49,253 nt of DNA, taken from contig JAKCDM010000012.1 of assembly GCA_021841865.1 (NCBI GenBank), forward strand, positions 1 to 49,253, written 5' to 3'. This DNA comes from Pseudomonadota bacterium. Its GTDB lineage: Bacteria; Pseudomonadota; Gammaproteobacteria; Burkholderiales; Burkholderiaceae_C. Positions 7,208-35,939 of the stretch are shown one piece after another; the first letter of the stretch is position 1; each line of letters begins with the position of its first letter. Made by a program: the position numbers and the translations under genes. The notes beneath the pieces were generated by a model, which searched no databases, had not been told where the DNA came from, and was given only the letters and a program-made list of their open reading frames with translations.

Positions 7208-8050
7208 TCAGCGCAGCGCCCGCGCGTGGTGCTCGAAATGCTCGCCGAGCAGGCTGGCGACGAAGTAGTAGCTGTGGTCGTAGCCGGCCTGCAGGCGCAG
7301 TTGCAGCGGGTGCGACACCGCGTCGCAGGCCGCCCGCAGCAATTCCGGGCGAAGTTGCTCGGCGAGGAAGGGGTCGGCGTCGCCGACGTCGACCAGCAGC
7401 GGCAGGCGCTCGCGCGCCGCGGCCACCAGTTCGACCGCGTCCCAGGCCTTCCACGCTTGCGCGTCGGGACCGAGGTAGGCCTCGAAGGCCTTGCGACCCC
7501 AGGGCACCTGCGTGGGGGCGACGATGGGCGAGAACGCCGAGACGCTGCGATAGCGCCCGGGGTTGCGCAACGCGGTGACCAGTGCGCCGTGCCCGCCCAT
7601 CGAGTGGCCGCTGATCGAGCGCGCCGGGCTCGCCGGGAAGTTCGCGTCGACCCAGGCCGCCAGTTCCTCCGCCACATACTGCTGCATGCGGTAGTGCCGC
7701 GCCCATGGCTGCTCGGTGGCGTCGACGTAGAAGCCGGCACCCTGGCCGAGGTCGTAGGCCTCGTCGTCGGCAACGCCGAGCTTGCCGTCGGGGTCGCGCG
7801 GGCTGGTGTCGGGGGCGACCACGATGATGCCGTGGCGCGCCGCGTGCTGCTGCGCCCCCGCCTTGGTGATGAAGTTCTGCTCGGTGCAGCTCAGTCCCGA
7901 CAGCCAGTACAGCACCGGACAGGGCGCTCCGCGCAGGGCCTGCGGCGGCAGGTAGACGCCGACCCTCATGTCGCAGCCGAGGCAGGCGGCGAAGTGGCTC
8001 CAGACCTCCTGGCGGCCACCGAAACTGGCGTGCTGCTCGATGCGCTGCAT
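7208..8050 (-). CDS. fghA: S-formylglutathione hydrolase
   Basis: [35 protein letters not shown]-like core, [10 protein letters not shown] nucleophile motif, C-terminal [20 protein letters not shown]. Confidence 0.95.
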   Translation of the reverse strand: [280 protein letters not shown]

Positions 8051-8060
8051 GATGCGGGAC

Positions 8061-9263
<1,203 letters not shown>

Positions 9264-12539: not shown

Positions 12540-13258
12540 GCTGGCCTCTCCAGCGCCTGTAGCAACGCGTCGGACGACGCAACGGCGCCGAACACGCCAC
12601 CCTGCATGGTGATCATGTGCAGCGCCGCCGCGTGGTTAGCTGGGTCGGTGGCGCCGCAGCAGTCCGACAGCACCAGACACTCGAAGCCGCGGTCGTTGGC
12701 TTCGCGCAGCGTCGTGTGCACGCACACATCGGTGGTGATGCCGGTAAGCACGAGGTTGCGCATGCCCTGCTGGCGCAGGACCAACTCCAAGTCGGTAGCG
12801 CAGAACGCCCCCTTGCCCGGCTTGTCGATGATCACCTCGCCGGGCAGCGGCGCCAGCTCGGCAATGATCTCCCAGCCGGGTTCGCCGCGCACGAGGATGC
12901 GCCCGCACGGGCCGGGGTCGCCGATGCCGGCGCCGATTTGCCGGCTGCGCCAGCGCTTGTTGGCCGGCAGGTCCGACAGATCAGGTCGATGGCCCTCGCG
13001 TGTGTGGACGACCAGGCAGCCGGCGCGGCGCATCGCCTGCAGCACGCGGGCGATGGGCGCGATCGGCGCGCGGGTCAGCGACAGGTCGTAGCCCATGCGG
13101 TCGACGTAGCCACCGACGCCGCAGAAGTCGGTCTGCATGTCGATCACCAGCAACGCAGTGTTGCCCGGGCGAAGGTCGGCGTCGAAGGGCCAGCGGTAGG
13201 GGGCGGCGGCGACCTGGCCCTGCGGTGCGTCGTCGGCGCCCTGTGCCAGCGCGTTCAT
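12536..13258 (-). CDS. biuH: Isochorismatase-family cysteine hydrolase, biuret hydrolase-like
   Basis: [28 protein letters not shown]...[46 protein letters not shown]...[22 protein letters not shown] closely resembles recalled BiuH sequences. Confidence 0.8.
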
Positions 13259-14325
13259 TTCAGGCTACCCACGACGCCCTGAACCAGGAAGTCCATCGCG
13301 TCGACGCGCGCGCGCGGCAGCACACTGCCCTGCGGCACCAGCAGCTTGCCGTCCTGCGCGCGGATCGGGCCGGCCCATACATTGAGCGTACCCTCCTCGA
13401 TCGCATGCTCCTTGTCCAGGATCAGCTTGCGGGTGGCCGCGTCGACCGATGGCCCGAACGGAGCCAGCTTGGCGGCGCCGCTTTTCAGGTTTCCGTACAC
13501 AGCGTGCGATTTCCAGGTGCCCGCCTCGACCTCCTTGACGGTCTGGGCCATGATCGGGCCCCAGTTCCAGTAGCCACCGGTCAGCCAGCCCTTGGGATCG
13601 AAGCGCATGTCGTCGAAGTGGTAGCCGATGACCTTCACGCCGCGCTTGCGGGCTGCCTCGATTACCGGGATCGGCGAGTCCACGTGCATGCCAATCACCG
13701 ACACGCCCTGGTCGACCAGCGTGTTGACCGCCGCCACGTCCTTCGACGGATCATTCCAGGCGCCGGTGTAGACGACGGTAACGGTTGCCTTCGGGTTGAC
13801 GCTGTGCGCGCCCAACTCGATCGCGTTGATGTCCTGCAGGATCTGCGGAATCGGGTGGGCGGCGACGAAACCGATCTTGCCGTCGGGCGCTGCCTTGCCT
13901 GCGGCGATGCCCGACAGGTACATGGCTTCGAACATGTCGGCGAAGTAGGTCCCCAGGTTGGGCGCAAGCTTCGCGCCGCCGCAATGCATGAAAGTGACCT
14001 TCGGATACTTCTGCGCCACCTTCAGTGCATAAGGCAGGTAGCCGTAGCTGGTGGCGAAGATAATCGTGTCGCCGGCGCCGATCATGCGCTCCATGGCCTG
14101 CGTGACCTGCGCGTTCTCGGGGATGTTCTCAAGGTAGTTGGTCCTCACGCCGGGCACGGCCTTTTGCAGATACAGGCGGCCGGCGTCCTGCGCCTCGTTG
14201 TAGCCGCCGTCGGTCTTCGCGCCGACGTAGAGGAAGCCAACGGACGGGGCAGCCTGCGCGGCTTCGACGCCGAGGCAGGCGAGCAGCGCGAGCGCGCCGA
14301 CGAGACTGGCAATGCGTGGTTTCAT
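13255..14325 (-). CDS. BMP/PnrA-family ABC transporter substrate-binding protein
   Basis: Signal peptide, [45 protein letters not shown]. Confidence 0.9.
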
Positions 14326-14368
14326 GAAACTCTCCGGATACGTCGGGTTGAGGAATGGTTGCAGGACA

Positions 14369-15283
14369 TCAGGACATGCCGCGAAACACCCCGGCCAGCT
14401 CCTGTGGCATCGACGTCGCGCGGCGGCTGGAGTGGTAGCTAAGCAGCAGCACCAGCAGCGGTACCAGGTAGGGCAGCGTGCCGAGCAGGTAGGGGGAAAG
14501 GTCCGAGCCGGTGGATTGCAGGCGCAAGGACACCGCCTCGGACAGGCCGTAGATCAGCGCAACCGGCAGCGACAGCCAGGGGTTCCAGCGCGCCACGATC
14601 ACCAGGCCCACGGCCAGCAGGCCGCGACCGGCGGTCATCTGCTCGACCCAGGTGCGCGTATAGTCCACCGACAGCGCGGCGCCGGCCAGCCCGGTGAAGC
14701 CGCCGCCCACCAGCACCGCCAGTGCACGCAGGCGCTGCGGGTGGCGGCCCAGCATGCGCAAAGCGTCGGCTGATTCGCCAGCGGCGCGCCAACGCAGCCC
14801 CCAGCGCGTGCGGTACAGGAACACGCCGCTGAGCACGACCAGCAGCAGCGCCAGGTACACGGTGGGCGTGAGCTGCGCCAGCGTACCGCCCAGCAGCGGC
14901 AGCCGTTCGAGCCAGCCGTGGCGTAGGCTTGGGAAGCCCTCGATCTGCTGCCCCACCAGCGAGGCGCCGTAGTACGACGACAGTCCGTTGCCCAGGAACA
15001 GCACGGCTAGCCCGCTGGCGATCTGGTTGACGCCCAGGCCCAGGCTGAGCACCGCGTGCACGCCGGACAGCGCCAGCCCGGCGGCGCTGCCCACCGCCAG
15101 TCCCAGCCAGGGGTTGCCGCTGGCGTGGGTGGCGGCGAAGCCCGCAGCGGCGCCGACTAGCATCTGTCCCTCCACACCAAGGTTGACCACTCCGGCGCGC
15201 TCGGTCAACGTCTCGCCGAGCATGGCTAGCAGCACCGGGGTGGCGGTTAGCAGGGCCACCGTGAACAGGCCGAGCACGTTCAT
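14369..15283 (-). CDS. BMP-type (nucleoside-like) ABC transporter permease
   Basis: TERAGVVNLGVEGQMLVGAAAGF; polytopic protein. Confidence 0.9.
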   Translation of the reverse strand: MNVLGLFTVALLTATPVLLAMLGETLTERAGVVNLGVEGQMLVGAAAGFAATHASGNPWLGLAVGSAAGLALSGVHAVLSLGLGVNQIASGLAVLFLGNGLSSYYGASLVGQQIEGFPSLRHGWLERLPLLGGTLAQLTPTVYLALLLVVLSGVFLYRTRWGLRWRAAGESADALRMLGRHPQRLRALAVLVGGGFTGLAGAALSVDYTRTWVEQMTAGRGLLAVGLVIVARWNPWLSLPVALIYGLSEAVSLRLQSTGSDLSPYLLGTLPYLVPLLVLLLSYHSSRRATSMPQELAGVFRGMS

Positions 15284-16335
15284 GCGCGCCCCCCTCCAAC
15301 GTGGCGCGCATGCAGCGCGCCCACCGCGAGCACACTGATAAACAGCATCGCCTGCAGTACCACGGTGTTGGCGAATGGCAGCTGGGCGAACAACTGCAGC
15401 GCGTCAGCAGCTGAGAGCAGCCCGCCCATGACCAGCGACAGCGGCACGATGCGCAGCAGGTTCTGCCCCGCCAGCCAAGCCACCAGGAAGCCGACGTAGC
15501 CATAGCCCGACGAGATGTCGGGTTGCAAGTGACTTTGCACATTGGCGGTCTGCACGTAGCCGGCCACGCCGGCCAACGCGCCGGCCAGCGCCATCACCGC
15601 CACCGCATAGCGTGAGTAGGACAAGCCGCTCATGCGTGCCACGCGCGGGTTGCTGCGCAGTAACGCCAGCGCGGTGCCCCAACGGCTGTACTCGACCAGG
15701 AGGTGCAGCAGCAGGGCCAGCAGCAGCGCCAACACGAGGGCCCAGTTGCTGCTCAGCGCGCCAGCGGTGAGTTGCGGAAAGCGCGACGCCGCGGGGAACG
15801 CCACGGTCGCCGGCCAGCCCAGGTTGCCGGCGTCCTTCCACGGGCCATACACCGCGTACTCGACGAGTTGGATGCCCAGGTAGTTCATCAGGATGGTGAC
15901 GATGGTCTCGTTGACCCCGAGCCGCGCGCGCAGCAGCCCCGGAAGCGCGCCCCACAGCGCGCCGCCGAGCACGCTCAGCGCCAGAGCCGCCGGCAGCAGC
16001 TCGAACGCCGGGGCGTCGAGCATGCGCAGCACCGCGGCGGTACCGGCCAGCGCACCGAAGTACAGTTGCCCCTCGGCGCCCACCGAGATCAGCCCCATTC
16101 GTGCGGGCAGCGCGGTGGCCATGGCACAGAACAGGATCGGGATGGTCTTGGCCAGCGTGGTGTTGACCGACAACGCGCTGCCAAAGGCGCCCTGCACGAT
16201 CTGCGCGAAGATTGTCAGGGGCGCATAGCCGTTCATGTAGAAGAACCCGGCGGCCAGCAGCGCGAACACCGCGACGCCGACGGCGGGCACGAACATGCGC
16301 GACGAAAGGCACGCGTACAGACGCTTCGCGGTCAT
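15280..16335 (-). CDS. BMP-type ABC transporter permease
   Basis: [38 protein letters not shown]; overlaps ATPase stop by 4 nt. Confidence 0.9.
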
Positions 16336-17816
16336 GCGCTGCCTCCATGGGTCATCAGGTGCCCGAGATGCACGCGGTCGATTTGCTCGGCCGGCAGCAC
16401 CGCAACCAGGCGGCCGTCGTAGAGCACGCCGATGCGATGGGCGTAGCGGAGCAGGTCGTCGAGATCCTCGGAGATCCACAGAACCGCAGCACCCTCGGCG
16501 GCCTGCGCGAACAACGCTTCGTACACCGACTGCGTGGCCTGCAGGTCGAGCCCCATGGTCGGGTAGCAGGCGACGACGAAGCGGCGCGGCTGCGACAGCT
16601 CGCGCGCGATCACAAGCTTTTGCAGGTTACCGCCCGACAGACCAGCGCTGGCAAGCGCTGGGTCACGGGGGCGCACGTCGAAGCGCTCCATCAACTGCGC
16701 CGCGCGCACGTCGATCTCGTGCCAACGCGGAAACCACGGCAGCTCGCGCAACCGGCGCAGCGACAGGTTGAGCGCGTTGCTCATGTCGGCCGCCACCGCG
16801 TTGCGCAGCGGGTATTCGGGAATGCAGCCCTGGCGCGCATCGTGCGGGTGCGCCGTGTCGGCGCTGTGCAGCACTTCGCCGTCGAGCACCACCTCGCCGG
16901 CGTCGATCGGAGCCATGCCGGTGAGCGCGTCGGCCAGCAGGTCCTGGCCGTTGCCCGAGACGCCGGCGATGCCCAGCACCTCGCCGGCTGCGATATCGAA
17001 GTCGACATCCTGCAGACGCAGGGTCTCGCTGCTGGCGCGCAGTGCGCGTACCGCCACGCGTACCGGCTCGTCGCGCGGCGGAGCGATCTCGCGCACCGGG
17101 CGCAACCCGGCCTCGCCGACCATGCGCGCGACCAGTTCGGCGACGCTGACCTGGCGCGCGTCGCACTGGTCAACTAGGCGCCCGCCGCGCATCACCGCCA
17201 CGCGGTGCGCGCAGGCGCGCACGTCGTCGAGCTTGTGGGTGATGAACACCACGCTTCGCCCCGACGCCGCAAGCCGGCGCACGACCTCGTGCAAGCGCTG
17301 TGCTTCCGCCGGAGCGAGCACCGAGGTCGGCTCGTCCAGGATCACTAGGCGGGCGTCGAGGTTGAGCACCTTGACCAGTTCGACCTGCTGCTTCTGCCCG
17401 ACGGACAGCGAGTCCACGCGACGCCGGGGATCGATCCCGGGGGCGAACTCGGCGAGCAGGCGCGCTGCCGGCGCGGTGCTGTGCCGGCCGTGCCAGGCCG
17501 GTGCGCCGGGGTAGGCCAACAACAGGTTCTCCAACACGCTCAGCGCTGGCAGCAGGCTGAACTGCTGGAACACCATGCCGATGCCCAGGGCGATGGCGTC
17601 GCGGGGCGACGTGATCGCCACTTCGCGTCCGTCGACCATGATCTGGCCGGCGTCCGCTTGGTGGTAGCCGTAGAGCACCTTCATCAGCGTGCTCTTGCCC
17701 GCCCCGTTCTCGCCCAGCAGAGCCAGTACTTCGCCTTCGCCGATGTCCAGCCAGACGTCGTCGTTGGCACAGACCGGGCCGAAGCGTTTGCGGATACCGA
17801 GCAATCGGACTTGCAT
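16332..17816 (-). CDS. BMP-type ABC transporter ATP-binding protein (two ABC domains)
   Basis: [25 protein letters not shown]; second-half [16 protein letters not shown]. Confidence 0.95.
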
Positions 17817-22714: not shown

Positions 22715-23584
22715 TCAGAAGTGGTATTCGACCCGCAACATCGGGGTGGAGGCCTTCGCTCCGGGGGTGGTCGAGTACGGGTTGCCGAACTTGTTGCGCC
22801 AGTACTGGTACTCCAGGCCCGCCCACAGCTTGTTCGGGGCACCATACATCGAGCCCACGTCGTACATCAGCTCGGTATCGAGCAAGGTCTCCGGCGCGGT
22901 GCCGTAGCCCTTCGCGCCGATATGGTCGAAAAAGCCGCTCCACTTCACGTGCGAAGCCACGTCGATGCCCCAGTCGGCGGCCAGCACATAGGTCGTGTTG
23001 AAGGTCACGTCGCCACCCGTCGGGTACGGCGAGAAGCCGTTGTGGTTGCTCTCCTTGTACAGTTCCAGGCCGACCTCGGCGAATCCGGGAACGTCGAGGC
23101 CGACCATGGGACCGAAGCGCAGCTTGCGAACGCGCGGGCCGAAGGTCGTGTTCTTGGCCGAGTAGTCGACCCCCATGGCCATCTTCACGTCATTGATCGG
23201 GCCAAAGGAAATCTTCTTGCCGGTGATCTGGTCGTAGGACCAGGTGCGACGATAGACCGCGTACAGCTCTTGTGCGCCGGCGGCAGCGCAGCTCGGCGAA
23301 TTCGCTCCGGCGGCACAGGCTTCGACGTCGGTGGCGTCGGACATCAGGACGTCGAGGTTGAAGAAGTTGGTTCCCCAGGCATCTCCGCCGGCGTAGGTGA
23401 AGCCGGTGATCCGCTTGGCGATGTCCTGGCTGTAGCCCGGCTCGGCGAACTTCGTGCCGTAGCCGACGTGCACGTAGGCGTCGCTCCAGGTCGCCGCTTG
23501 TGCGCAATTCAGCAGCGCGCTGCCGCCGGCGAGCAGGCATGCGGCGAGCCATGGAGGGGAGAATCCGGGACGATGGGCTTTCAT
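22715..23584 (-). CDS. Tsx-like outer-membrane channel/outer envelope protein
   Basis: Signal peptide, TWSDAYVHVGYGTKFAEPG, C-terminal aromatic beta-barrel end LRVEYHF, WAGLEYQYWRNKFG. Confidence 0.75.
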   Translation of the reverse strand: MKAHRPGFSPPWLAACLLAGGSALLNCAQAATWSDAYVHVGYGTKFAEPGYSQDIAKRITGFTYAGGDAWGTNFFNLDVLMSDATDVEACAAGANSPSCAAAGAQELYAVYRRTWSYDQITGKKISFGPINDVKMAMGVDYSAKNTTFGPRVRKLRFGPMVGLDVPGFAEVGLELYKESNHNGFSPYPTGGDVTFNTTYVLAADWGIDVASHVKWSGFFDHIGAKGYGTAPETLLDTELMYDVGSMYGAPNKLWAGLEYQYWRNKFGNPYSTTPGAKASTPMLRVEYHF

Positions 23585-23669: not shown

Positions 23670-24512
23670 TCAGCGGCGTATTGCGCTTTCGTGCCAGTGA
23701 CCCAGCGCCAGGCGCGACAGCAGCACCATGACGCCGAACAGCGCCACGCCGGCCAGCGTGAGCAGGACCAGCGCGGCAAACATCTCGGGGATCTGCAGGT
23801 TGTAGCCACACTGCAGGATCTGGTAGGCCAGGCCGGCGCTCTGCCCGCCGGTTCCGGCGACGAATTCGGCGACCACGGCGCCGACCAGAGCCAGGCCGCT
23901 GCTGATGCGCAGGCCGCCGAAGAAGTAGGGCATCGCGGCGGGCACGCGCAGGCGAGTCAGGCGCTGCCAGCGCGAAGCCCGGTACAGCGTGAACATGTCG
24001 TCCAGGTTGGCGCTGACGCTGTTGAGCCCGAGGGTGGCGTTGGAGATGATCGGAAACACCGCGATGATCGTCGCGCAGACCACCAGGGCAGGCTCGGTGT
24101 GCTTGATCCAGATGATGATCAACGGGGCGATTGCGACGATCGGTGTCACCTGAAGCATGACCGCGTAGGGAAACAGGCTCATTTCGAGCAGTCGGCTCTG
24201 CGCGAACAGCACCGCGGTGATGCTTCCGAGCACGACGCTTGCGACGAAGGCGAGCAGCGTGACCTTCATGGTCATGAGCAGCGCGCCGAACAGCGTTCCG
24301 GCGTTCGCGACCAACGCTTGCGCGATCACCCGCGGGCCCGGAAGAAGGTACGGGGGCACATGCGCGGCCTCGACACCGAACTGCCACAGCAGCACGAAGC
24401 CGAGGCCGACGACCAGGGGCGCCGCCACGCGGATCACACGCGGCCCGGACAGCAGGGGGGAAGCGGGCATGGCTGGCTTGCGTCGGGGCTCAGGGCTTGG
24501 CCGGCAGGACAT
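23670..24512 (-). CDS. ABC transporter permease (SsuC/TauC/ThiX type)
   Basis: LQVTPIVAIAPLIIIW, LGLNSVSANLDDMFTLYRASRWQRLTRLRVPAAMPYFFGGLRIS EAA-loop; start could be 24470. Confidence 0.9.
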   Translation of the reverse strand: MSCRPSPEPRRKPAMPASPLLSGPRVIRVAAPLVVGLGFVLLWQFGVEAAHVPPYLLPGPRVIAQALVANAGTLFGALLMTMKVTLLAFVASVVLGSITAVLFAQSRLLEMSLFPYAVMLQVTPIVAIAPLIIIWIKHTEPALVVCATIIAVFPIISNATLGLNSVSANLDDMFTLYRASRWQRLTRLRVPAAMPYFFGGLRISSGLALVGAVVAEFVAGTGGQSAGLAYQILQCGYNLQIPEMFAALVLLTLAGVALFGVMVLLSRLALGHWHESAIRR

Positions 24513-25491
24513 GCAGGTCGCGGATGAACTGCAGGTCGTAGGCCTTGTGGTAATCGAAGCTCGCCGGCAGCATCTGGTGGGCCACCATGAAATCGAACAT
24601 CTTCTTCCACCGCGCGTCGGTCATCGTGCCGATTCCACCGGTCGCCGCGTCGCCGCCGGTGAGGAACCCGTACTTCTTGAGCATGCGCATCGAAAAGGCC
24701 ATCTGCTCGGGGGTCTGCTTGGGGTCGGCCTTGGCGATCAGACGGTTGCCCGGGCCCGGGTCGGCGAGATAGGACTTCCAGCCCTCGAGCGAGGCCTTCA
24801 CGAACGCGGCCACCCATTGCGGATGCTTGCTCACCATCTCGCGCGTGGTGTCGATGGTCTCGGCGTACATGGACCAGCCGTGGTCGGCGAGCAGGAATAC
24901 CACCGGGTGGCCGCCGCCCTTCTCGATCATCAGCGGCTCGGAGCCGACGAAGCCCTGCTGCGACACGTCGGGATCGTGCAGGAAAGGGGCCACGCTGAAG
25001 GTGTAGGGGCGCTCCTGCGACTGCGTGAAGCCGTATTTCTGCTCCAGCCAGGGCCACCAGGTGCTGTTGGCGCTTTGCGAAACCAGGATCGGCTTGCCCT
25101 TCAACTGGGCCAGGCTGCGCACTCCCTGGTGCGCGATGATGACCTGCGGGTCCTTCTGGAAACTCGTGGCCACGGTGACCACCGGCAGGCCGTGGGAGAC
25201 CGCCAGCATGTCCTGCATCGGATAGCCCATGTAGAAATCGCAGCTTCCGCCGACCAGCAACTGCAGGCCGTTGACCTGAGGGCCGCCCATCTTGATGGTG
25301 ACGTCGAGCCCGGCCTTCCTGTACAGCCCTTGGGCCAGCGCCTGGTAGAACCCGCCATGCTCGGCCTCGGCGAACCAGTTGGTGCAGAAGGTGAGCTTGG
25401 GCAGTTCGCCGGCGTGGACAGCCGGGGCCAGAAGTGCGAACGCCGCGGCAAGGCCTGCGGCATAGCGGAACCATGGTTTGGCGAAGCGCAT
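24490..25491 (-). CDS. NMT1/THI5-like ABC transporter substrate-binding protein
   Basis: Signal peptide then KLTFCTNWFAEAEHGGFYQALAQGLYRKAGLDVTIKMGGPQVNGLQLLVGGSCDFYMGY. Confidence 0.9.
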   Translation of the reverse strand: MRFAKPWFRYAAGLAAAFALLAPAVHAGELPKLTFCTNWFAEAEHGGFYQALAQGLYRKAGLDVTIKMGGPQVNGLQLLVGGSCDFYMGYPMQDMLAVSHGLPVVTVATSFQKDPQVIIAHQGVRSLAQLKGKPILVSQSANSTWWPWLEQKYGFTQSQERPYTFSVAPFLHDPDVSQQGFVGSEPLMIEKGGGHPVVFLLADHGWSMYAETIDTTREMVSKHPQWVAAFVKASLEGWKSYLADPGPGNRLIAKADPKQTPEQMAFSMRMLKKYGFLTGGDAATGGIGTMTDARWKKMFDFMVAHQMLPASFDYHKAYDLQFIRDLHVLPAKP

Positions 25492-25514
25492 TGCGTATCC
25501 CCGGGTGGATGGAC

Positions 25515-25545
25515 TGTATGCAACCTTGCTAGCAATACGTATGCC
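25515..25545. promoter_or_regulatory. Palindrome-rich candidate operator region of divergent promoter
   Basis: TGTATGCA (reverse complement of TGCATACA at 17840), TTGCTAGCAA palindrome, ATACGTAT palindrome. Confidence 0.35.
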
Positions 25546-25828
25546 AACTCGAGACGGCCGGAACTTTCGCGGCGTAGGCTGTTTTCCAGACAAGGATGCG
25601 CGCTCGAGTTCCCAATTGTGGTGCGCGTGCATGCTCGGGGAACACCGCCCGCATCATCACGGTGCAGGGATCCTTTGTGCACAGGATGGCATACGGTGCT
25701 TCACCCACCTGAACGCAAAATCCAGGCGCTGGCATCGGCCTTGCTTACCCGGACGGCGGAGTAGAAGCGGTCAGCGGCTGGGTCGCGGGACATTGCTCCG
25801 ACCCCCTCCACTCCCATGGGAGCCCGTC

Positions 25829-26860
25829 ATGCTCGTCACTCGTCAACCGGTGCTTCGCCGGTTCTGGTACGCCACCCTTCCCCTGCACCAACTGGAACAG
25901 GGCCCGCGGTCCTTTCGCCTGCTCGGGGTTCCGCTGGTGCTGTGGCTCGATTCGCTGGGGCGCCCGGCGGCGCTTCGCGATCGCTGCTGCCACCGCACGG
26001 CGCGCCTGTCCAAGGGCTTCGTCGAGAACGGCCACATCGTTTGCGGCTATCACGGTTGGACCTACGACACCTGCGGTCGCTGCGTTCGCATTCCGCAGAA
26101 CGAACTCGGCGCGGTTCCCGACTCGGCAAGGGTCGACGCCTTCGCCTGCGAGGCGCGCTACGGCTACGCGTGGGTCGCGCTCGAGCAGCCTCTGGCACCG
26201 ATCCCGGAATTCGAGGAGGACTCCAGGCCAGGGTTCCGGCGCATCCTGCAATTCCACGAGACCTGGGCGACCAGCCCGCTGCGCTTCATGGAAAACGCCT
26301 TCGACAACTCGCACTTCAGCTTCGTGCACCGGAGCAACTTCGGCATCCAGGAGCAGCCCAGGCCCTCGCCCTACGACATCCGCGAGTCCGGCGACGGATT
26401 CAGCGCCCACACCGTGGTGCGGATCCGCAATCCCGAGTCGAGCCACCGCGTGACCGGCTCGGCCGAGCCCTACACCGAGCGCCAGCTCCACAACCGCTGG
26501 TGGCTGCCCTTCGTTCGCAGGTTCGGCTGCGTGTACGCGCCAAGCGGACGCCACCACATCATCTACAACTGCGCGACCCCGATCGACGATGAGCACATCT
26601 CGCTGGCGCAATGGCTGTATCGCGACGACACCGAGGATGACTGCAGCGCCGTCGAGCTCATCGCCTGGGACCGCCCGATCGTCGACGAGGATCGCGACAT
26701 CCTGGAGGCCACCGACCCCGACGCCGCGCTCGATCTGCAGCGCCGCACCGAGCAGCACATGGCGTCGGACCGTCCCGGGCTGCTCATGCGCAAGCGCTTG
26801 CTGGCACTGCTCCGCGAGCATGGCGAGAGCGAGAGCCATCGCCAGACGAGTGCCGGCTGA
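25829..26860 (+). CDS. Rieske [2Fe-2S] non-heme iron oxygenase, alpha-type subunit
   Basis: Rieske CCH...CGYHGW; mononuclear iron motif NAFDNSHFSFVH. Confidence 0.93.
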   Translation: MLVTRQPVLRRFWYATLPLHQLEQGPRSFRLLGVPLVLWLDSLGRPAALRDRCCHRTARLSKGFVENGHIVCGYHGWTYDTCGRCVRIPQNELGAVPDSARVDAFACEARYGYAWVALEQPLAPIPEFEEDSRPGFRRILQFHETWATSPLRFMENAFDNSHFSFVHRSNFGIQEQPRPSPYDIRESGDGFSAHTVVRIRNPESSHRVTGSAEPYTERQLHNRWWLPFVRRFGCVYAPSGRHHIIYNCATPIDDEHISLAQWLYRDDTEDDCSAVELIAWDRPIVDEDRDILEATDPDAALDLQRRTEQHMASDRPGLLMRKRLLALLREHGESESHRQTSAG

Positions 26861-26872
26861 GACCACGACCCC

Positions 26873-27712
26873 ATGTTCGAGACGATGCACACGCCCAGCA
26901 GCGGCTCCGCCTCGGTCCGCGAGCCCGAGCCGGCTCCCGACGGTCGCACCGCGCTTCACGCGCAGCGCATCGACAAGGTCTATGCCAGCGGAACGCGCGC
27001 GCTGGCCGAACTGCGGCTGCGAATCCAGCAGGGGGAGTTCGTGTCGCTGCTCGGCCCCTCGGGTTGCGGCAAGAGCACGCTGCTGCGGATGTTCGCCGGG
27101 CTGGAGACGCCGTCCGCGGGTCACCTGTCCTGGTGGGGTTCGACCCGCCCGCCGCGCCTCGCCGACGGCGAACGCAGTCTGTCCATGGTGTTCCAGGAGG
27201 CGACGCTGATGCCCTGGGCGCGGGTGCGCGGCAACGCACGCCTGCCTCTGGACCTGCGGCGAGTGCCGCGCGCACGCGCCGACGCGCGGGTCGACGAGGT
27301 GCTGCGCCTGGTGGGCCTGGACAAGTTCGCCCGCGCCTGGCCGCGCGAACTCTCGGGGGGCATGCAGATGCGCGTGTCGCTGGCGCGCGCGTTGGTCACC
27401 GATCCGGGCCTGCTGCTGCTCGACGAGCCCTTCGGCGCGCTCGACGAGTTCACCCGCAACCGCCTCGACTCCGAGGTGCGCCGGCTTTGGGGACTGCGCG
27501 ACATGACAGTGGTGTTCGTCACGCACAGCATCTCCGAGGCGGTGTTTCTGTCGACGCGCGTGGTCGTGATGGCGGCGCGCCCGGGCCGTGTCGTCGCCGA
27601 CCTGGCCATCGACGGGCCGCCGCAGCGCGACGACGAATGGCGCAACAGCCCCGAGTTCCTGAACCACTGCCGCGAGTTGTCGGCGCTGCTGCACGCCGCC
27701 GCCGACGCCTGA
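26873..27712 (+). CDS. ABC transporter ATP-binding protein (SsuB/TauB type)
   Basis: LLGPSGCGKSTLLRMFAGLE, ELSGGMQMRVSLARALVTDPGLLLLDEPFGALDEFTR. Confidence 0.95.
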   Translation: MFETMHTPSSGSASVREPEPAPDGRTALHAQRIDKVYASGTRALAELRLRIQQGEFVSLLGPSGCGKSTLLRMFAGLETPSAGHLSWWGSTRPPRLADGERSLSMVFQEATLMPWARVRGNARLPLDLRRVPRARADARVDEVLRLVGLDKFARAWPRELSGGMQMRVSLARALVTDPGLLLLDEPFGALDEFTRNRLDSEVRRLWGLRDMTVVFVTHSISEAVFLSTRVVVMAARPGRVVADLAIDGPPQRDDEWRNSPEFLNHCRELSALLHAAADA

Positions 27713-27753: not shown

Positions 27754-29208
27754 ATGACCGACACCTCCACCCCCTCGCCCACCTCGAACGCCCAGCCCTC
27801 GCTGCTCGTGCAGGGCGCGCAGGCGCTGCTGACCGGATTCGGGGGCAAGCAAGCGCGCGCCGCGGCCTGCGACCTGCGCATCCGCGGCGACCGCATCGAG
27901 GCCATCGGCCGGCTGCGGCGCGAACCCGGCGAGCGCGTGCTCGATGCCACCGACTGCGTGATCTACCCGGCCTGGGTAAACACCCACCACCACCTCGCGC
28001 AATCCCTGCTCAAGGGGGTTCCGGGGGGCATCGACGCCACGCTCACGCCCTGGCTCGAGGCCGTGCCCTTTCGCTTCCGCGGAGCCTTCGACGGGGAGCT
28101 GCTGCGGCTGGCGGCGCGCATCGGACTGATCGAGCTGGCGCTTTCGGGCTGCGCGACCGTCGCCGATCACCACTACTACCACTGGCCGGGAATCGGCTTC
28201 GACGGGCCCGCGATCCTGTTCGAGGAGGCCGAGCGCCTGGGCCTGCGCATGGTGCTGTGCCGGGGCGGGGCGACGCGCAGCCGCGACTTCGAGTCCGGGA
28301 TTCCCGGCGCCCAGCGCCCGGAATCGCTGCGCGACTACCTCGACGATCTCGGCAGGCTGCGCGCGCTGTACCACGATGATTCGCCCCGGGCGATGCGGCG
28401 CGTCGTCGCCGCGCCGACGACGCCGCTGTTCTCGATGCAGCCGCAGGAGCTACGCGAGACCGCCGCACATGCTCGCTCGCTCGGGCTGCGCCTGCACTCG
28501 CATCTGTCGGAGACGGTGATCTACCAGGAGGTCGCGCACGCCCGGCATGCCTGCAGCCCGATCGAGTTCGTCGCCGGGGTCGACTGGCTCGGGCCCGACG
28601 TGTGGTTCGCCCACCTCGTCAAGCTGAGCGACGCGGACATCGCCGAGCTCGGACGCACCCGAACCGGTATCGCGCATTGCCCGCAGAGCAACGGACGCCT
28701 GGGCAGCGGAATCGCCCCGGTAAAGGCGCTGCAGCAGGCGGGCTCGCCCATTTCCCTCGCGGTCGACGGGGCGGCGTCGAACGAAGCCTGCGACATGCTG
28801 CAGGAGGCCCACGCGGCCTGGCTCATGGCACGCGCGCGCGGCGGGCACCTGGCGCGTCCCGGCTTCGCCGGCGGCGCCGGGGAACAGGGAGCCGCCGACG
28901 CGACGGTGGAGGACGTGGTCCGCTGGGGCACCGCCGGCGGCGCCGAGGTGCTGGGCCTGCAGGGAGTCGGCACGCTGGCGCCGGGGCAGTCCGCCGACCT
29001 GGCGATCTATCGTCTCGACCAGCCGCGTCATTTCGGCTTGCACGACGCGGCGATCGCCCCCGTGGCCAGCGGGGGTGCGAGCCTGCGCGCGCTGCTGGTC
29101 GCGGGGCGCGTGGTGGCCGAGGACGGAGCGATCCCGGGACTGGACATGGCGCGGCTCGGACGGCAGGCGCGCGATGCCGTGCGGCGCCTGCAGACCCTGG
29201 TAGGCTGA
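27754..29208 (+). CDS. Amidohydrolase, 8-oxoguanine/isoxanthopterin deaminase-like
   Basis: NTHHHLAQSL metal motif, LHSHLSETV, VDGAASNE; cytosine deaminase/AtzB-TrzA type amidohydrolase layout. Confidence 0.75.
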   Translation: MTDTSTPSPTSNAQPSLLVQGAQALLTGFGGKQARAAACDLRIRGDRIEAIGRLRREPGERVLDATDCVIYPAWVNTHHHLAQSLLKGVPGGIDATLTPWLEAVPFRFRGAFDGELLRLAARIGLIELALSGCATVADHHYYHWPGIGFDGPAILFEEAERLGLRMVLCRGGATRSRDFESGIPGAQRPESLRDYLDDLGRLRALYHDDSPRAMRRVVAAPTTPLFSMQPQELRETAAHARSLGLRLHSHLSETVIYQEVAHARHACSPIEFVAGVDWLGPDVWFAHLVKLSDADIAELGRTRTGIAHCPQSNGRLGSGIAPVKALQQAGSPISLAVDGAASNEACDMLQEAHAAWLMARARGGHLARPGFAGGAGEQGAADATVEDVVRWGTAGGAEVLGLQGVGTLAPGQSADLAIYRLDQPRHFGLHDAAIAPVASGGASLRALLVAGRVVAEDGAIPGLDMARLGRQARDAVRRLQTLVG

Positions 29209-29233: not shown

Positions 29234-30589
29234 TCAGGCGCCTTCGACGAGCTGCCGCGCCAGCCGGTTGTGGCGCTCCACCAGCGGCCCCGTGTCGACC
29301 GTGGTCAGGCGCCCGCCATCGACGACCACGCGGCCGTGGATCACGCTGTAGGCGACCTCTCCCGGCTGGCAGAACACCAGCGCCGCGAGCGGGTCGTGCA
29401 AGGCACCGGCAAGTCCCGGGCGCCGCAGGTCGAAGGCGACGAAATCGGCGGCCATTCCGGGCCGCAGCGCGCCGATGTCGTCGCGCCCCAGCACCCGCGC
29501 GCCACCGAGCGTGGCGATTTCCAGCGCCTCGCGCGCGCTCATCGCGCCCGGCCCGGAACCCACGCGCTGCAGCAGCAGCGCCTGGCGCACCTCCCCCAGC
29601 ATCTGCCCGGAATCGTTCGAGGCCGAGCCGTCAACCCCGAGGCCGACGGCCACGCCGGCGTCGCGCATGGCGCGGATCGGCGCGATCCCCGAGGCCAGGC
29701 GCATGTTCGAGCAGGGACAGTGGGCGACTCCGGTGCCGCTGCGCGCGAACAGTTCGATTCCCGCGGCGTCGAGCTGCACGCAGTGCGCGTGCCAGACGTC
29801 GGGACCTACCCAGCCCAGGTCCTGCACGTACTCCGCCGGGCTCATCCCGAAACGCTCGCGACTGTAGGCCACGTCGAGGGCGTTCTCCGCCAGGTGGGTA
29901 TGCATCGAAACCCCGTAGTGGCGCGCCAGCGCCGCCGATTCGCGCATCAGGTCGCGGCTGACCGAGAACGGGGAGCAGGGGGCGACCACCACCCGCAGCA
30001 TCGCGCCAGGCTCGGGGTCGTGGTAGGTCTCGATCAGGCGCTGGGTGTCGCGCAGGATGCTCGCCTCGTCCTCCACCAGCGAGTCGGGCGGCAGTCCGCC
30101 CCGGCTGACCCCCACGCTCATGCTGCCGCGGCTGGCGTGGAAGCGCATGCCGATGCGCGCGGCGGCCTCGATGCTGTGGTCGAGGCGGCAGCCGTTGGGG
30201 TAGAGATAGAGGTGGTCGCTCGATGTGGTGCAGCCCGACAGCAGCAGCTCGGCCATCGCGCTCAGCGTGGACACCTCGACCATCTCCGGGGTGAGTCCGG
30301 CCCAGATCGGGTACAGCGTGCGAAGCCAACCGAAGAGTTCGGCGTCCTGGGCCGCGGCGATCGCGCGGGTCAGGCTCTGGTACATGTGGTGGTGCGTGTT
30401 GACCAACCCCGGGATCACGATGTGCCCGGACAGGTCGATCACCCGGTCAGCCTGCGCCGGCACGCTGGCGCTCGGGCCGACCTGCACGATGCGATGCCCA
30501 TCGACGAGCATGGCGCCGTCGCGGATCTCGCGGCGCTCGCCGTCCATCGTCACCAGCAGCTCGGCGTGCCGGATCGCCAACGTGGCCAT
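29234..30589 (-). CDS. Amidohydrolase, 8-oxoguanine deaminase-like
   Basis: VNTHHHMYQSLTRA, HTHLAEN, VDGSASNDSGQMLGEVRQALLLQR; strong family resemblance to Pa0142-type 8-oxoguanine deaminase. Confidence 0.8.
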   Translation of the reverse strand: MATLAIRHAELLVTMDGERREIRDGAMLVDGHRIVQVGPSASVPAQADRVIDLSGHIVIPGLVNTHHHMYQSLTRAIAAAQDAELFGWLRTLYPIWAGLTPEMVEVSTLSAMAELLLSGCTTSSDHLYLYPNGCRLDHSIEAAARIGMRFHASRGSMSVGVSRGGLPPDSLVEDEASILRDTQRLIETYHDPEPGAMLRVVVAPCSPFSVSRDLMRESAALARHYGVSMHTHLAENALDVAYSRERFGMSPAEYVQDLGWVGPDVWHAHCVQLDAAGIELFARSGTGVAHCPCSNMRLASGIAPIRAMRDAGVAVGLGVDGSASNDSGQMLGEVRQALLLQRVGSGPGAMSAREALEIATLGGARVLGRDDIGALRPGMAADFVAFDLRRPGLAGALHDPLAALVFCQPGEVAYSVIHGRVVVDGGRLTTVDTGPLVERHNRLARQLVEGA

Positions 30590-30609: not shown

Positions 30610-31170
30610 TCAGCGTGCGCCCGCGCCGCGCCAGAAGTGGCTGTGCGGCTCGAGCAGCTCCTGCTCGATCTCGGCGAACGGCCCGTGCACCTCGATCGGC
30701 TTCTGGCCGCGTGCGAACACTTCGCGGCAGGGCAGGTCGAAGGTCATGTTCTGCTCGTGGTCGCCGGTCAGGCCCAGCAGCGTGCGCTCGGACGCACCGT
30801 AGACCACCCTGCCGATGTTGGCCCAATACTGGGTGCCGGCGCACATCACGCAGGGCTCGAAGGTCGTGTACAGCGTGCAGCCCCACAGGTAGTCCGGCGC
30901 CAGCTGGCCCGCGGCGATCCTCGCCAGCGTCGACTCGGCGTGCTGAACCGAATCGATGTTGCCCTGCTCGAGCAGCACCGTCGCGTGGTCGGGCGCAACC
31001 AGGATGGCACCGAAGGGATGGTGTCCGAGGGCGAGCGCGCGCAGCGCGACCACGTTCGCATGCCGCAGATGCCGCAGCATCTGCGCGAGCGAAGGAGCGC
31101 CGCCGCGCGCGCGCGGCGCGGCTGCTCCGCGGGCCGTTTCAGCGGCCACCGGGAAGGGTGCCCTGGACAC
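30610..31170 (-). CDS. Cytidine/deoxycytidylate deaminase-fold nucleoside or guanine deaminase
   Basis: HAES...FEPCVMCAGTQYWANIGRVVYG zinc motif. Confidence 0.85.
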   Translation of the reverse strand: MSRAPFPVAAETARGAAAPRARGGAPSLAQMLRHLRHANVVALRALALGHHPFGAILVAPDHATVLLEQGNIDSVQHAESTLARIAAGQLAPDYLWGCTLYTTFEPCVMCAGTQYWANIGRVVYGASERTLLGLTGDHEQNMTFDLPCREVFARGQKPIEVHGPFAEIEQELLEPHSHFWRGAGAR

Positions 31171-32236
31171 CTTCCATGTAGTAGTGCAACTGGTGCAGCT
31201 GGGCGTCCTCTAGGCTGGTGCCGGCCGGTACCACGATCTTGCCGGACTGGTCCTTGATCGGCCCCTCGAATACCGGGTGCTCACCGGAGATGATTCCGGC
31301 GATGCGCTGTTCGAGCACCGTGTGCACCGCGGCTGGGACGGCCGGGTTGAGGCGGGTTAGCGCGATCGACTTCTGCTTCAGCCCGTACCAGACCGAGGCA
31401 TCGCGCTTGAGCGTGCCGTCGAGCACGCCCTGGATCACCTCGGTGTACCGCGGCGTCCAGTTCAGCGCCACCGCGCCGAGCTGCTGCGTCGGGGCGAAGG
31501 TGTGCATGTCGGAATCCCAGCCGAAGGCCCAGACCTTCTTTTCCTCGGCGGCCTGCACCACCGCCGGCGAATCGGAGTTTTGCAGCAACGCGTCGGCGCC
31601 CTGGCTAATCAGGGTCAGCGCGGCCTGGCGTTCCTTGCCCGGGTCGTACCAGGTGCTGATCCAGACCACGTTGGTCGTGACCTTCGGGTTCACACTGCGA
31701 GCCCCATGGTTGAAGGCATTGATGTTGCGCACCACCTCGGGAATCGGGAACGTGGCGACGAATCCGATCTTGTTGGTCCTGGTCATGCTGCCGGCAACGA
31801 TTCCCGCCAGGTAGGCACCCTCGTAGGTACGCACGTCGTATTCGCCGACGTTGGGGGCGGTCTTGTAGCCGGTGGCCTGCTGGAACTCGACGTCGGGGAA
31901 CTGCCGGGCGACCTTGATCACCGAGTCCATGTAACCGAAGGACGTGGCGAAGATCACCTTGTTGCCGGCCATCGCCAGGTCGCGGAACACATGCTCGGAC
32001 TGCGGGCCTTCGGGCACGCTCTCGACGAAGCTGGTCTGCAGCTTTGAGCCGAAGGCCTTGGCCACGGCCCTGCGGCCGAGGTCGTGGGAATAGCTCCAGC
32101 CCACGTCGCCGATCGGCGCGACGTAGACCCAGGCGGCCTTCAGCGGTTCAGCTGCCGAGGCGCGGCCGAGCAAGCCGGGAGCGAACGTGGAGGCGACTCC
32201 CGAAGCGGCGAGTTTGAGGGCAGTACGACGCTGCAT
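31139..32236 (-). CDS. BMP-family ABC transporter substrate-binding protein (second copy)
   Basis: MQRRTALKLAASGVAS (Tat-like) then AAWVYVAPIGDVGWSYSHDLGR, IIFATSFGYMDSV-like, IGFVATFPIPEVVRNINAF. Confidence 0.93.
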   Translation of the reverse strand: MQRRTALKLAASGVASTFAPGLLGRASAAEPLKAAWVYVAPIGDVGWSYSHDLGRRAVAKAFGSKLQTSFVESVPEGPQSEHVFRDLAMAGNKVIFATSFGYMDSVIKVARQFPDVEFQQATGYKTAPNVGEYDVRTYEGAYLAGIVAGSMTRTNKIGFVATFPIPEVVRNINAFNHGARSVNPKVTTNVVWISTWYDPGKERQAALTLISQGADALLQNSDSPAVVQAAEEKKVWAFGWDSDMHTFAPTQQLGAVALNWTPRYTEVIQGVLDGTLKRDASVWYGLKQKSIALTRLNPAVPAAVHTVLEQRIAGIISGEHPVFEGPIKDQSGKIVVPAGTSLEDAQLHQLHYYMEGVQGTLPGGR

Positions 32237-32306
32237 GACACTTCTCCTGGATGGAACGGGTTTGGGGCAAGCGGAAGGGAAACGGGGGATGCGACCGCCG
32301 GCGCGC

Positions 32307-33239
32307 TCAGCCGTCGACGCGAAACGACGAGCCGAGCGAAGCCGGCGAATTCAGACGGATGGTCTGCTTGTCGCGCGAGATCAGCACCAGCACGAGGATG
32401 GTCGCCCAGTACGGCAGCGAGTTCAGCCACTGCGAGGGAATCGCGATGCGCGCCCCCGAGGCCTGAACGAACAACGCTGCGACCATGACGAATCCGAACA
32501 GATAGGCGCCGACCATCAGGCGCACCGGACGCCAGGTCGCGAACACGACCAGCGCACCGGCGATCCAGCCGCGCCCAGCGACCATGCCCTCGACCCACAG
32601 TGGCGTGTAGAACTCGGAAAGAAAGGCTCCGGCCACGCCCGCCATGGCGCCGCCGAAGGCCACCGCGGCGAAGCGGATCGCGATCACCGGGTAGCCGACG
32701 TCGTGCGCAGCCAACGGGGATTCCCCCACCGCGCGCAGCACGAGCCCCCAGCGCGAGCGCATGAGGAACCACTGCACGGCCGCGAACAGTCCCCACGACA
32801 GGTAGACCAGGCTCTGCTGGTCGAACAGGATGCGGCCGAGGATCGGAACGCGGTCGAGCAGCGGAATCGCGATCGAGTGCACCGGCGCGACCGCCATCGA
32901 CTCGTAGTGTTTGCCGATGAAGGCCGACAGGCCTAGGCCGAAGATTGTCAGCGCCAGCCCGGTCGCCGCCTGGTCGGCGAGCAGGGTCAGCGTGGCCACG
33001 CCGAAGGCGAGCGCGAGCAGCGTACCTGCGACCATTGCCATAGCGACGCCGGTCCACACCGAACGGGTGTCGTGGGCGAAGGCGAAGCCGACGACCGCGC
33101 CCACTGCCATCATGCCCTCGATCCCGAGGTTGAGCACGCCGGATCGCTCGACCACGAGTTCGCCGAGCCCGGCGATGACCAGCGGTGTCGCCGCGACGAT
33201 GCACGACGACAGCGTGGAGACGAGAAGGTCTTGGACCAT
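32307..33239 (-). CDS. BMP-type ABC transporter permease
   Basis: VVERSGVLNLGIEGMMAVGAVVGF. Confidence 0.93.
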   Translation of the reverse strand: MVQDLLVSTLSSCIVAATPLVIAGLGELVVERSGVLNLGIEGMMAVGAVVGFAFAHDTRSVWTGVAMAMVAGTLLALAFGVATLTLLADQAATGLALTIFGLGLSAFIGKHYESMAVAPVHSIAIPLLDRVPILGRILFDQQSLVYLSWGLFAAVQWFLMRSRWGLVLRAVGESPLAAHDVGYPVIAIRFAAVAFGGAMAGVAGAFLSEFYTPLWVEGMVAGRGWIAGALVVFATWRPVRLMVGAYLFGFVMVAALFVQASGARIAIPSQWLNSLPYWATILVLVLISRDKQTIRLNSPASLGSSFRVDG

Positions 33240-33253
33240 CGGGAACTCCTGGT

Positions 33254-34345
33254 TCAGCCCTGCGCGCTGCGCCAGGAGACCCAGCGCACGCGGTAGTTGA
33301 TCAGCACGTTGGCCGCCAGCAGGTAGAACAGCAGCAGGCCCTGGAAGATCTGCGAGATGGCTGCCGGCAGGTTCAGCGACACCTGCGCCTGGTAGCCGCC
33401 GAGGTAGAACAGCGCCAGCAGGATGCTCGACAGGAAGATGCCCAGCGGGCTCAGCCGCCCCACGTAGGCGACGATGATCGCGGCAAAGCCGTAGCCCACG
33501 CTGATCTGGTCGGTGAGCTGGCCCATCGGTCCGGTCACCTCGGCCATGCCGGCGATTCCGGCGCAAGCGCCGCTGACGAGCATCGCCACCCAGACCATGC
33601 GCGATGCCGAGAAGCCCGCGTAGCGCGCTGCCGCCTCGGCCTCGCCGGCGACGCGCAGCTTGTAGCCGAGGTAGGAGCGGCTCAGGAACAGATGCGCCGC
33701 CGCCAGCAGCAGCAGCGCGAACGGGAAGGCCAGGGTCAGCCGGGTTCCGTGGACGATGGTTGGAAGCGTGACGCAGGCCGCCAGTGTCGGTGTCTGCGGG
33801 AAGTTCATTCCCTTGGGGTCCTGCATAGGGCCGAACACCAACCAGGACTCGATCAGCTGCGCTGCATACACCAGCATCAGCGAGGTCAGGATGATGTTCG
33901 CGTTGTAACGGGTGCGCAAAAGCGCGGGGATCGCCGCCCAAGCCATTCCGCCGAGCGCGCCCGCGACCATGGTTCCAAACAGCAGCAGGTAGCTCGGCGA
34001 GGCGTAGCTGTTGCCGGCGCCCACGTGCAACGCGAAGGCGGTGGCGGCGACCGCGCCCATCACGTATTGGCCCTCAGCACCGATGTTCCAGATACGCGCG
34101 CGGTAGCACACCGCCAGACCCACGCCACACAGCATCAGAGGGGTCGCCTTGAGCAGCAACTCGGTGACCCCGTACAGCGTGGAGACCGGTGTCACGAAGA
34201 AGGCCTGGAAGCTGGTCCACGGGTTCTTGCCCAGCAGCGCGAACAGCAACAGCCCCGTGGCCACAGTGAGCAGCATGGCAAGGAACGGCGCCGCGTAGAA
34301 CATGGCATTCGACGCACGCGCGCGAGGTTCGAGCCTACACAGCAT
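33254..34345 (-). CDS. BMP-type ABC transporter permease
   Basis: ARIWNIGAEGQYVMGAVAAT; RYNANIILTSLMLVYAAQ. Confidence 0.93.
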   Translation of the reverse strand: MLCRLEPRARASNAMFYAAPFLAMLLTVATGLLLFALLGKNPWTSFQAFFVTPVSTLYGVTELLLKATPLMLCGVGLAVCYRARIWNIGAEGQYVMGAVAATAFALHVGAGNSYASPSYLLLFGTMVAGALGGMAWAAIPALLRTRYNANIILTSLMLVYAAQLIESWLVFGPMQDPKGMNFPQTPTLAACVTLPTIVHGTRLTLAFPFALLLLAAAHLFLSRSYLGYKLRVAGEAEAAARYAGFSASRMVWVAMLVSGACAGIAGMAEVTGPMGQLTDQISVGYGFAAIIVAYVGRLSPLGIFLSSILLALFYLGGYQAQVSLNLPAAISQIFQGLLLFYLLAANVLINYRVRWVSWRSAQG

Positions 34346-35939
34346 GGGGAAACTCCCTGGGATCCGCCGCGCCCGCGTGCGCCAGCGCGCCGGTATCGTC
34401 GCCGGGCTGCGGCCACAACCCACTCATCCACACGCCGATGTCCTCAACGTCGATTTCCGAGGCCTTGCGCGCGGGCGACAGCCTGCCCTTGGCCATGACC
34501 GCGATGCGGTCGCAGATCTCGAACAGCTCCTCGAGCTCCTCGGAAACCACCAGCACCGCGCATCCCTCGTTGCGCAGGTCGATCAGGCTCTGGCGAATGA
34601 AGGCCGCCGCGCCGACATCGACGCCCCAAGTCGGCTGCGCCACTACCAGAAGCTTCGGGCGCTGCAGGATCTCGCGGCCGACGATGTACCTCTGCAGGTT
34701 GCCTCCCGACAACGAGCGTGCCGGCGCATCAGGACCCGGGCAGCGAACGTCGAACCTATCGATGCACTCTACCGAGAAGGCCCGCGCGCGCGCCACACGA
34801 ACCAGGCCGTGGCGGACGAAATCGAGCACGTAGGCGCCGGTGAGAATCGCGTTTTCGGCCAGAGACATGCCTGGAACCGCGCCGCGCCCCAATCGTTCCT
34901 CGGGAACGAAGCACAACCCTAGGCGACGCCTCGCGCCGGGCGACAGGCGCCCCGCCTCACGGCCCATGATGTGCACGGGGAATTTGAGCGCGAACGGCTG
35001 CTCGCCGGAGATGATGCTCAACAGCTCCTGTTGGCCGTTGCCAGAAATTCCGGCGATTCCGACGATCTCTCCGGCATGCACTTCGAGGTGCACGTCGCGC
35101 AGGTCGACTCCGAACTGGTCTTCAGCCTCGCGGTTGACGCCGGACAGGCGAAGCCGCGGCTCCCGGCCCTGCCTAGCCTCGCCGTGCTCGCACACCGGAA
35201 GGTCTCGGCCGATCATCATGCGCGCCAGGCTCTTCGGGGTTTCCTCTGCGGGGCGGCAATGACCGACCACCTTGCCGCCCCGCAGCACGGTAGCGACGTG
35301 ACATACCTCCTGGATCTCGTCGAGCTTGTGGCTGATGTACAGCACGGCGCAGCCTTCCACACTGAGCTTGCGCAGCGTGTCGAACAGGCCGCGCACGGCC
35401 TGCGGCGTGAGCACCGAGGTCGGCTCGTCGAGGATCAGCAGCTTAGGGTTCTGCAGAAGGCAGCGCAGGATTTCCACGCGCTGACGCTCGCCGACCGACA
35501 AGGCATGCACATGGCGCTGCGGCGAAACCGGCAAGTCGTACTTCTGCGACATGAGCTCGATCCGCCGTGCCAGTTCCGGCAGCGGCGGCGCATCGGACAT
35601 GCCGAGCGCGACGTTCTCGCACACGGTCAGGGTCTCGAACAAGCAGAAATGCTGGAACACCATGCCGATTCCCAGCGCACGGGCCTGCGCCGGGCTGTGC
35701 ACGCGCATCTTCTCGCCGCGCCAGAACATCTCCCCGGCGGTGGGCTTGGTGACACCGTAGATCATTTTCATCAGCGTCGACTTGCCCGCGCCGTTCTCAC
35801 CCAGCACTGCGTGAATCTCGCCCTCGGCGACGTCGAGGTCGACACCATCGTTAGCCACCACAGTGGGGTAGATCTTGCAGATGCCATGCAGCCGTAGCAG
35901 GCTGGGCCTGACCGTTGCGTGCTCGCTCACGGGATCCAT
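34335..35939 (-). CDS. BMP-type ABC transporter ATP-binding protein (two ABC domains)
   Basis: [42 protein letters not shown]. Confidence 0.95.
   Translation of the reverse strand: MDPVSEHATVRPSLLRLHGICKIYPTVVANDGVDLDVAEGEIHAVLGENGAGKSTLMKMIYGVTKPTAGEMFWRGEKMRVHSPAQARALGIGMVFQHFCLFETLTVCENVALGMSDAPPLPELARRIELMSQKYDLPVSPQRHVHALSVGERQRVEILRCLLQNPKLLILDEPTSVLTPQAVRGLFDTLRKLSVEGCAVLYISHKLDEIQEVCHVATVLRGGKVVGHCRPAEETPKSLARMMIGRDLPVCEHGEARQGREPRLRLSGVNREAEDQFGVDLRDVHLEVHAGEIVGIAGISGNGQQELLSIISGEQPFALKFPVHIMGREAGRLSPGARRRLGLCFVPEERLGRGAVPGMSLAENAILTGAYVLDFVRHGLVRVARARAFSVECIDRFDVRCPGPDAPARSLSGGNLQRYIVGREILQRPKLLVVAQPTWGVDVGAAAFIRQSLIDLRNEGCAVLVVSEELEELFEICDRIAVMAKGRLSPARKASEIDVEDIGVWMSGLWPQPGDDTGALAHAGAADPREFPHAV

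Follow-up and report, generated by a model that had tools for sequence, protein, structure and literature searches.

What does a Rieske non-heme iron oxygenase do when its gene lies between the genes of an ABC importer and that of a deaminase? The question is raised by contig JAKCDM010000012.1 of the Burkholderiaceae_C assembly GCA_021841865.1, of which positions 1 to 49,253 were analysed (hereafter, the window). A sequence-only reading of this DNA had proposed an oxidative step on an N-heterocycle, by ring hydroxylation or N-dealkylation, in a setting of nucleobase uptake. The observation itself is confirmed and the interpretation is partly supported; a riboswitch (RF03054), the PRK12393 identity of the deaminase and a reductase present in relatives had been overlooked. 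We give a probability of about 0.5 to the following answer: the locus is an operon under feedback control that scavenges oxidised pteridines, with a probable overlap to guanine-type purines, and where the Rieske protein would act as a ring hydroxylase beside the deaminase. The source assembly is of draft quality, with 92% completeness and 5.5% contamination; the Rieske gene was recovered in four further genomes of this genus (G013, G014, G015 and G023).

Table 1. Features of the Rieske locus (window coordinates).
Feature	Position	Strand	Evidence
Outer-membrane channel, divergent	22715..23584	-	without Pfam match; start inferred
ABC importer permease, divergent	23670..24512	-	Pfam BPD_transp_1 2.9e-24
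NMT1/THI5-like substrate-binding protein (SBP), divergent	24490..25632	-	Pfam NMT1 3.6e-28
Xanthine riboswitch aptamer (NMT1 RNA, RF03054), Rieske operon leader	25754..25803	+	cmscan 51.5 bits
Rieske non-heme iron oxygenase	25829..26860	+	343 aa; Pfam Rieske 8.1e-20, VanA_C 2.9e-19
Rieske [2Fe-2S] motif C53-C-H55-R...C72-GY-H75	25985..26053	+	sequence; clade-wide invariant
Mononuclear iron motif D159-NSHFSFV-H167	26303..26329	+	sequence; D159, H162, H167 invariant
Asp281, position of NdmA Asn282 / NdmB Gln (regioselectivity residue)	26669..26671	+	alignment
ABC importer ATPase	26873..27712	+	Pfam ABC_tran 2.4e-32; module-conserved
PRK12393 amidohydrolase, probable isoxanthopterin deaminase	27754..29208	+	NF009059 707.9 bits (cut-off 543); PDB 2PAJ 617 bits
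8-oxoguanine deaminase, convergent	29234..30589	-	NF006055 741 bits (cut-off 532); PDB 3HPA 765 bits

A xanthine riboswitch precedes the Rieske gene

The aptamer in the Rieske leader covers the whole RF03054 model (positions 1-56 of 56; cmscan, Rfam), well above the gathering score of 36 bits. The 12 consensus pairs present in it are all standard pairs, and 25 nt separate its 3' end from the Rieske start codon. Repression in this class would act through RBS sequestration; in folding predictions the Shine-Dalgarno region is paired whether or not the aptamer is enforced. Neither a sigma-70-like promoter nor a terminator was found within positions 25500-25900. Only one RF03054 match was found in the assembled genome, so that a second purine locus on contig 35, with xanthine dehydrogenase (XDH) and guanine deaminase genes, is without the riboswitch. 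Rfam's own model found the RNA in all seven relatives first scanned. A custom model matched at 68 of the 80 related loci and at 60 of the 64 that are adequately flanked, counts that include the 21 examples from which it was built and which match by construction.

RNAs of this class are OFF switches that bind xanthine (KD 3.7 uM) and more weakly urate, the C8 position being tolerated (PMC7373994; PMC8266621). Yu and Breaker had already published in 2020 that genes for dioxygenases, PRK12393 and ABC proteins are associated with this riboswitch, and their article lists Rieske-type dioxygenases (hcaE, PDR), PRK12393, tauA/NMT1 SBP, tsx and tadA (PMC7373994). The same RNA is found here. As this regulon is published and the deaminase is an orthologue of a putative isoxanthopterin deaminase (below), the earlier statement that the oxidative step could not be matched to a known pathway is only half right.

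The downstream amidohydrolase is a PRK12393 deaminase

The gene order had been described correctly: the ATPase gene starts 12 bp after the Rieske stop codon and is followed by the amidohydrolase gene, with the SBP and permease genes divergent. The amidohydrolase had been called 8-oxoguanine-deaminase-like. Its product passes the PRK12393 cut-off but reaches only 383 bits with the 8-oxoguanine deaminase model, under the cut-off of 532; it is the convergent gene coming next that encodes the true 8-oxoguanine deaminase. The best solved relative of the PRK12393 enzyme is 2PAJ, which we take to be Sgx9339a, the isoxanthopterin deaminase that Hall et al. described in 2010. The window protein is 61% identical to it, and the copy in the Paraburkholderia fungorum operon 99.4%. 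Orthology to 2PAJ is solid, and the window enzyme is probably an isoxanthopterin deaminase as well. According to a review, Sargasso Sea members of the family deaminate isoxanthopterin and pterin-6-carboxylate (PMC5270733). The window's genome has a second PRK12393 gene (L116; G000 contig 35, 20206-21570, minus strand), downstream of XDH, guanine deaminase and NCS2 permease genes.

The outer-membrane channel of the window is 76% identical to that of locus L004, 38% to that of L092 and 26% to that of L031, which has a weak Tsx match; it appears to be distantly related to the Tsx-like protein whose gene diverges from the Pseudomonas operon. Farther out, a TadA-like deaminase gene is found at 30610-31170 (minus strand), and a 65% identical relative comes after NMT1-type ABC genes beside the Rieske gene of genome G029 (L095). 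Two complete BMP-type (nucleoside-like) ABC importers lie on either side (13255-17816 and 31139-35939). The segment 18377-22674 encodes an AtzE-family amidase, an AtzH-like protein, a GntR regulator and an allophanate hydrolase, probably for late ureide/allophanate catabolism.

The Rieske protein belongs to a separate clade

Both metal motifs are complete, as had been noted: the cluster ligands are C53, H55, C72 and H75, the DNSHFSFVH motif is present, and the third iron ligand is, by alignment, D288, which is invariant across the clade. The protein thus has the marks of a VanA-type Rieske oxygenase (CxH...CxxH, DxxHxxxxH plus a carboxylate, and a VanA_C domain). In-frame TGA codons seen in several orthologues were set aside; in G079, the one checked, the codon is the terminal stop taken into the match. 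Asn282 and Phe286 of NdmA are presumably its regioselectivity pair. At the first position all 108 clade sequences have Asp, where most others have Gln or Asn; at the second the clade has Thr, Val, Leu or Ile. The matching substrate residues of NdmB are Gln and Leu, and the structure 6icp, titled "QL mutant", has Gln and Leu at these two positions. An acidic Asp281 would fit a substrate face rich in N-H donors, for example in pterin or guanine.

The AlphaFold2 model (pLDDT 83.4) is nearest in fold to SxtT/GxtA, NdmA and DdmC, and sequence and fold together place NdmA/NdmB, SxtT/GxtA and DdmC as neighbours. SxtT/GxtA are the best structural match (TM about 0.80-0.83) and carry out C-hydroxylation of a purine-like substrate, but they share only about 26% identity and belong to another pathway. 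In a tree of 58 rows, a branch supported at 100/100 separates the Rieske clade from NdmA/NdmB, from the plasmid proteins that bear the hpxD annotation or their close kin, and from another group of Rieske proteins encoded near purine genes. A characterised aromatic demethylase clearly orthologous to the Rieske protein, which would have spoken against the sequence-only reading, was thus not seen.

These results bear on whether the enzyme demethylates a methylated purine or pterin, yielding xanthine or a substrate of the deaminase, plus formaldehyde. NdmA is the closest solved structure by sequence (3.5e-34), NdmA and NdmB share the Rieske and VanA_C-type architecture and a purine-like substrate, and NdmA products finish at xanthine, the riboswitch ligand (PMC4408171). 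Genes for formaldehyde detoxification (frmB and frmA) are present in the window at 7208-9260 (minus strand), and frm genes flank ndm genes too. However, the clade is distinct from NdmA/NdmB, and where these have Asn282 or Gln it has an invariant Asp, with Phe286 also replaced. Neither an NdmD-type reductase nor frm genes are conserved in the module, frmA/frmB (over 45% identity) occurring in the flanks of none of the 80 relatives, and the hydroxylases SxtT/GxtA score equally or better among the fold neighbours. N-demethylation is a live rival that we consider unlikely; of the two reactions first envisaged, N-dealkylation is the less favoured.

The module is conserved in Burkholderiales and Pseudomonadaceae

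The module of SBP, Rieske, ABC and deaminase genes is kept across Burkholderiales and Pseudomonadaceae. The 64 adequately flanked loci, which are not independent since the sample was picked by similarity from related genera, contain PRK12393 in 62 cases, the SBP and the permease in 61 each, the ATPase in 60, a PDR-type reductase in 23 and an isopenicillin-N-synthase (IPNS)-like oxygenase in 16. The proposal of an oxidative step on an N-heterocycle is supported and much strengthened by this operon, found in dozens of genomes, and by its xanthine riboswitch. One could suppose that the substrate is an unrelated aromatic and that the operon neighbours are incidental; loci L008 and L053 indeed have the riboswitch and the Rieske gene without the deaminase. 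The near-constant presence of the deaminase and the position of the riboswitch directly at the Rieske gene in the window make this very improbable.

Several loci carry additional genes. The IPNS-like 2OG oxygenase is encoded in the Rieske operon or in adjacent divergent genes (L020, L034, L004 and L177), which places two oxygenases in one regulon. Tandem pairs of Rieske paralogues occur in L023, L032, L035 and other Ramlibacter and Polaromonas loci, and G561 and G596 have three copies. In Ramlibacter L015 (4625-9985), genes for creatininase-like, FAD oxidase and Rid-family proteins adjoin the module and could possibly encode ring-opening steps.

A reductase accompanies the operon in some relatives

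The absence of a visible reductase holds for the window, where tblastn with two reductases from relatives' operons gave no match to a PDR/VanB-type enzyme. Likewise no ferredoxin is encoded there, the sole pattern match, at 43771, lying in a spurious frame. It does not hold for the family: a PDR-type reductase with a C-terminal Fer2 domain is encoded next to the operon in 24 of the 80 relatives (Herbaspirillum and Pseudomonas). In Herbaspirillum its gene comes directly after the riboswitch, 5' of the Rieske gene, and in Pseudomonas 3' of it, after the deaminase; the two places suggest that reductases were recruited separately for one task. The window's genome has four such reductases, of which three adjoin other Rieske genes; the fourth, once an orphan candidate (C130), proved to be fused to a P450. 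No reductase still free of another assignment turned up in this genome, which counts against our preferred explanation. In P. tropica (L071, 6623-7858, and L073), a fusion of Rieske and Fer2 domains resembling NdmD is encoded upstream of the riboswitch.

Purine catabolism in genomes with the module

Of 20 genomes tested for XDH, 18 score over the cut-off; for PuuD the figure is 17 of 18. A few comparison genomes, with only more distant Rieske genes, are counted in each set. The window's genome has an XDH operon with guanine deaminase on contig 35; its PuuD match is partial (positions 122-294). A Rieske protein standing in for XDH without molybdenum is disfavoured by these XDH genes, and one replacing urate oxidase by those of PuuD. 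Since genomes with the Rieske gene nearly always carry XDH and PuuD too, a simple Mo-free xanthine hydroxylase is unlikely. In L011, L026 and L030 the genes of XDH and PuuD even form a single run with the Rieske gene, so that the latter would add a step that both lack. In L011 and L026 this run, on one strand, is XdhA-XdhB-(XdhC-like)-8-oxoguanine deaminase-ATPase-permease-PRK12393-SBP-Rieske-PuuD; L030 (G595) has the same XdhA...Rieske-PuuD run minus PRK12393.

Such loci invite another reading, in which the Rieske protein oxidises a purine ring carbon (of hypoxanthine or xanthine, or from guanine to 8-oxoguanine) and feeds urate. Yu and Breaker, in the part of their article drawn on here, read the regulon as purine oxidation from the similarity of the riboswitch-linked dioxygenases to HpxDE, and make no connection there between PRK12393 and isoxanthopterin deaminase (PMC7373994). 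The hypoxanthine/xanthine oxygenase HpxDE of Klebsiella is likewise a Rieske system with two components and a purine context. The runs just described place orthologues with XDH, 8-oxoguanine deaminase and PuuD. Loci L030/G595 and G029 lack PRK12393 and combine uricolytic genes with either an 8-oxoguanine or a TadA-like deaminase, and purine substrates fit them as well. The G029 orthologue, a distant clade member, lies near HIU hydrolase, PuuE and UraD (read from N-terminal sequence), and in L092 a more distant Rieske gene (about 33%) is found with an adenosine/adenine-deaminase-like gene, 8-oxoguanine deaminase, UraD and allantoicase. On the other side, XDH and PuuD already cover hypoxanthine and xanthine oxidation in nearly all genomes, and the Rieske protein coexists with XDH, unlike HpxDE. 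The plasmid proteins annotated hpxD, an unproven annotation used here as a stand-in for Klebsiella HpxD, are 31% identical, fall in another clade and pair with a rubredoxin and an FAD reductase. The usual partner of the Rieske gene is moreover PRK12393, whose characterised member, an isoxanthopterin deaminase, reportedly did not use 8-oxoguanine. We regard purine-ring oxidation as a live rival, but a rather doubtful one.

A proposed function

The riboswitch, the conserved operon and the deaminase orthology are solid, and the reductase of relatives is shown; we infer the substrate and the position attacked, the reductase used here and the route to xanthine. In the scavenging operon that we favour, the substrate would enter through the outer-membrane channel and the NMT1-family ABC importer. 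The Rieske protein would work as a two-component monooxygenase together with a PDR/VanB-type reductase, here from elsewhere in the genome, and would hydroxylate a ring carbon, C7 of pterin or C6 of 7-oxolumazine. The PRK12393 enzyme would strip the 2-amino group, turning isoxanthopterin into 7-oxolumazine. The product would drain to xanthine and urate, to be taken by the genome's XDH and PuuD, and xanthine bound to the riboswitch in the Rieske leader would lower translation.

Xanthine oxidase turns lumazine into violapterin (PMC9966888), which makes a step that XDH does not perform, such as C6 hydroxylation of 7-oxolumazine, attractive. A more specific version, tentative but possible, is a dedicated pteridine-degradation operon in which the Rieske protein performs this C6 (or C7) hydroxylation on the route isoxanthopterin, 7-oxolumazine, tetraoxopteridine, xanthine-8-carboxylate, xanthine, and in which xanthine or a similar oxidised lumazine closes the loop at the riboswitch. 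McNutt is said to have described in Alcaligenes faecalis the conversion of isoxanthopterin to tetraoxopteridine, followed by ring contraction to xanthine-8-carboxylate and then xanthine (EC 5.5.1.3). A route of this type, ending at xanthine, would also account for a xanthine sensor. Against any pteridine substrate stands the fact that the ligands reported for RF03054 are xanthine and urate, with no pteridine among them (PMC7373994). Beyond that report we found no literature linking a Rieske protein to isoxanthopterin or to 8-oxoguanine deaminase; the pteridine reading of the riboswitch-linked operon is new.

To our knowledge, the genes of pterin degradation are largely unassigned. If the proposal is true, it would provide genes for the microbial breakdown of pterins, which serve as pigments and cofactors, and a function for a clade of Rieske proteins that extends over Burkholderiales and Pseudomonadaceae. 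It would explain why a near-identical copy of a characterised isoxanthopterin deaminase lies behind a xanthine riboswitch, and the physiological ligand of this riboswitch class would become testable.
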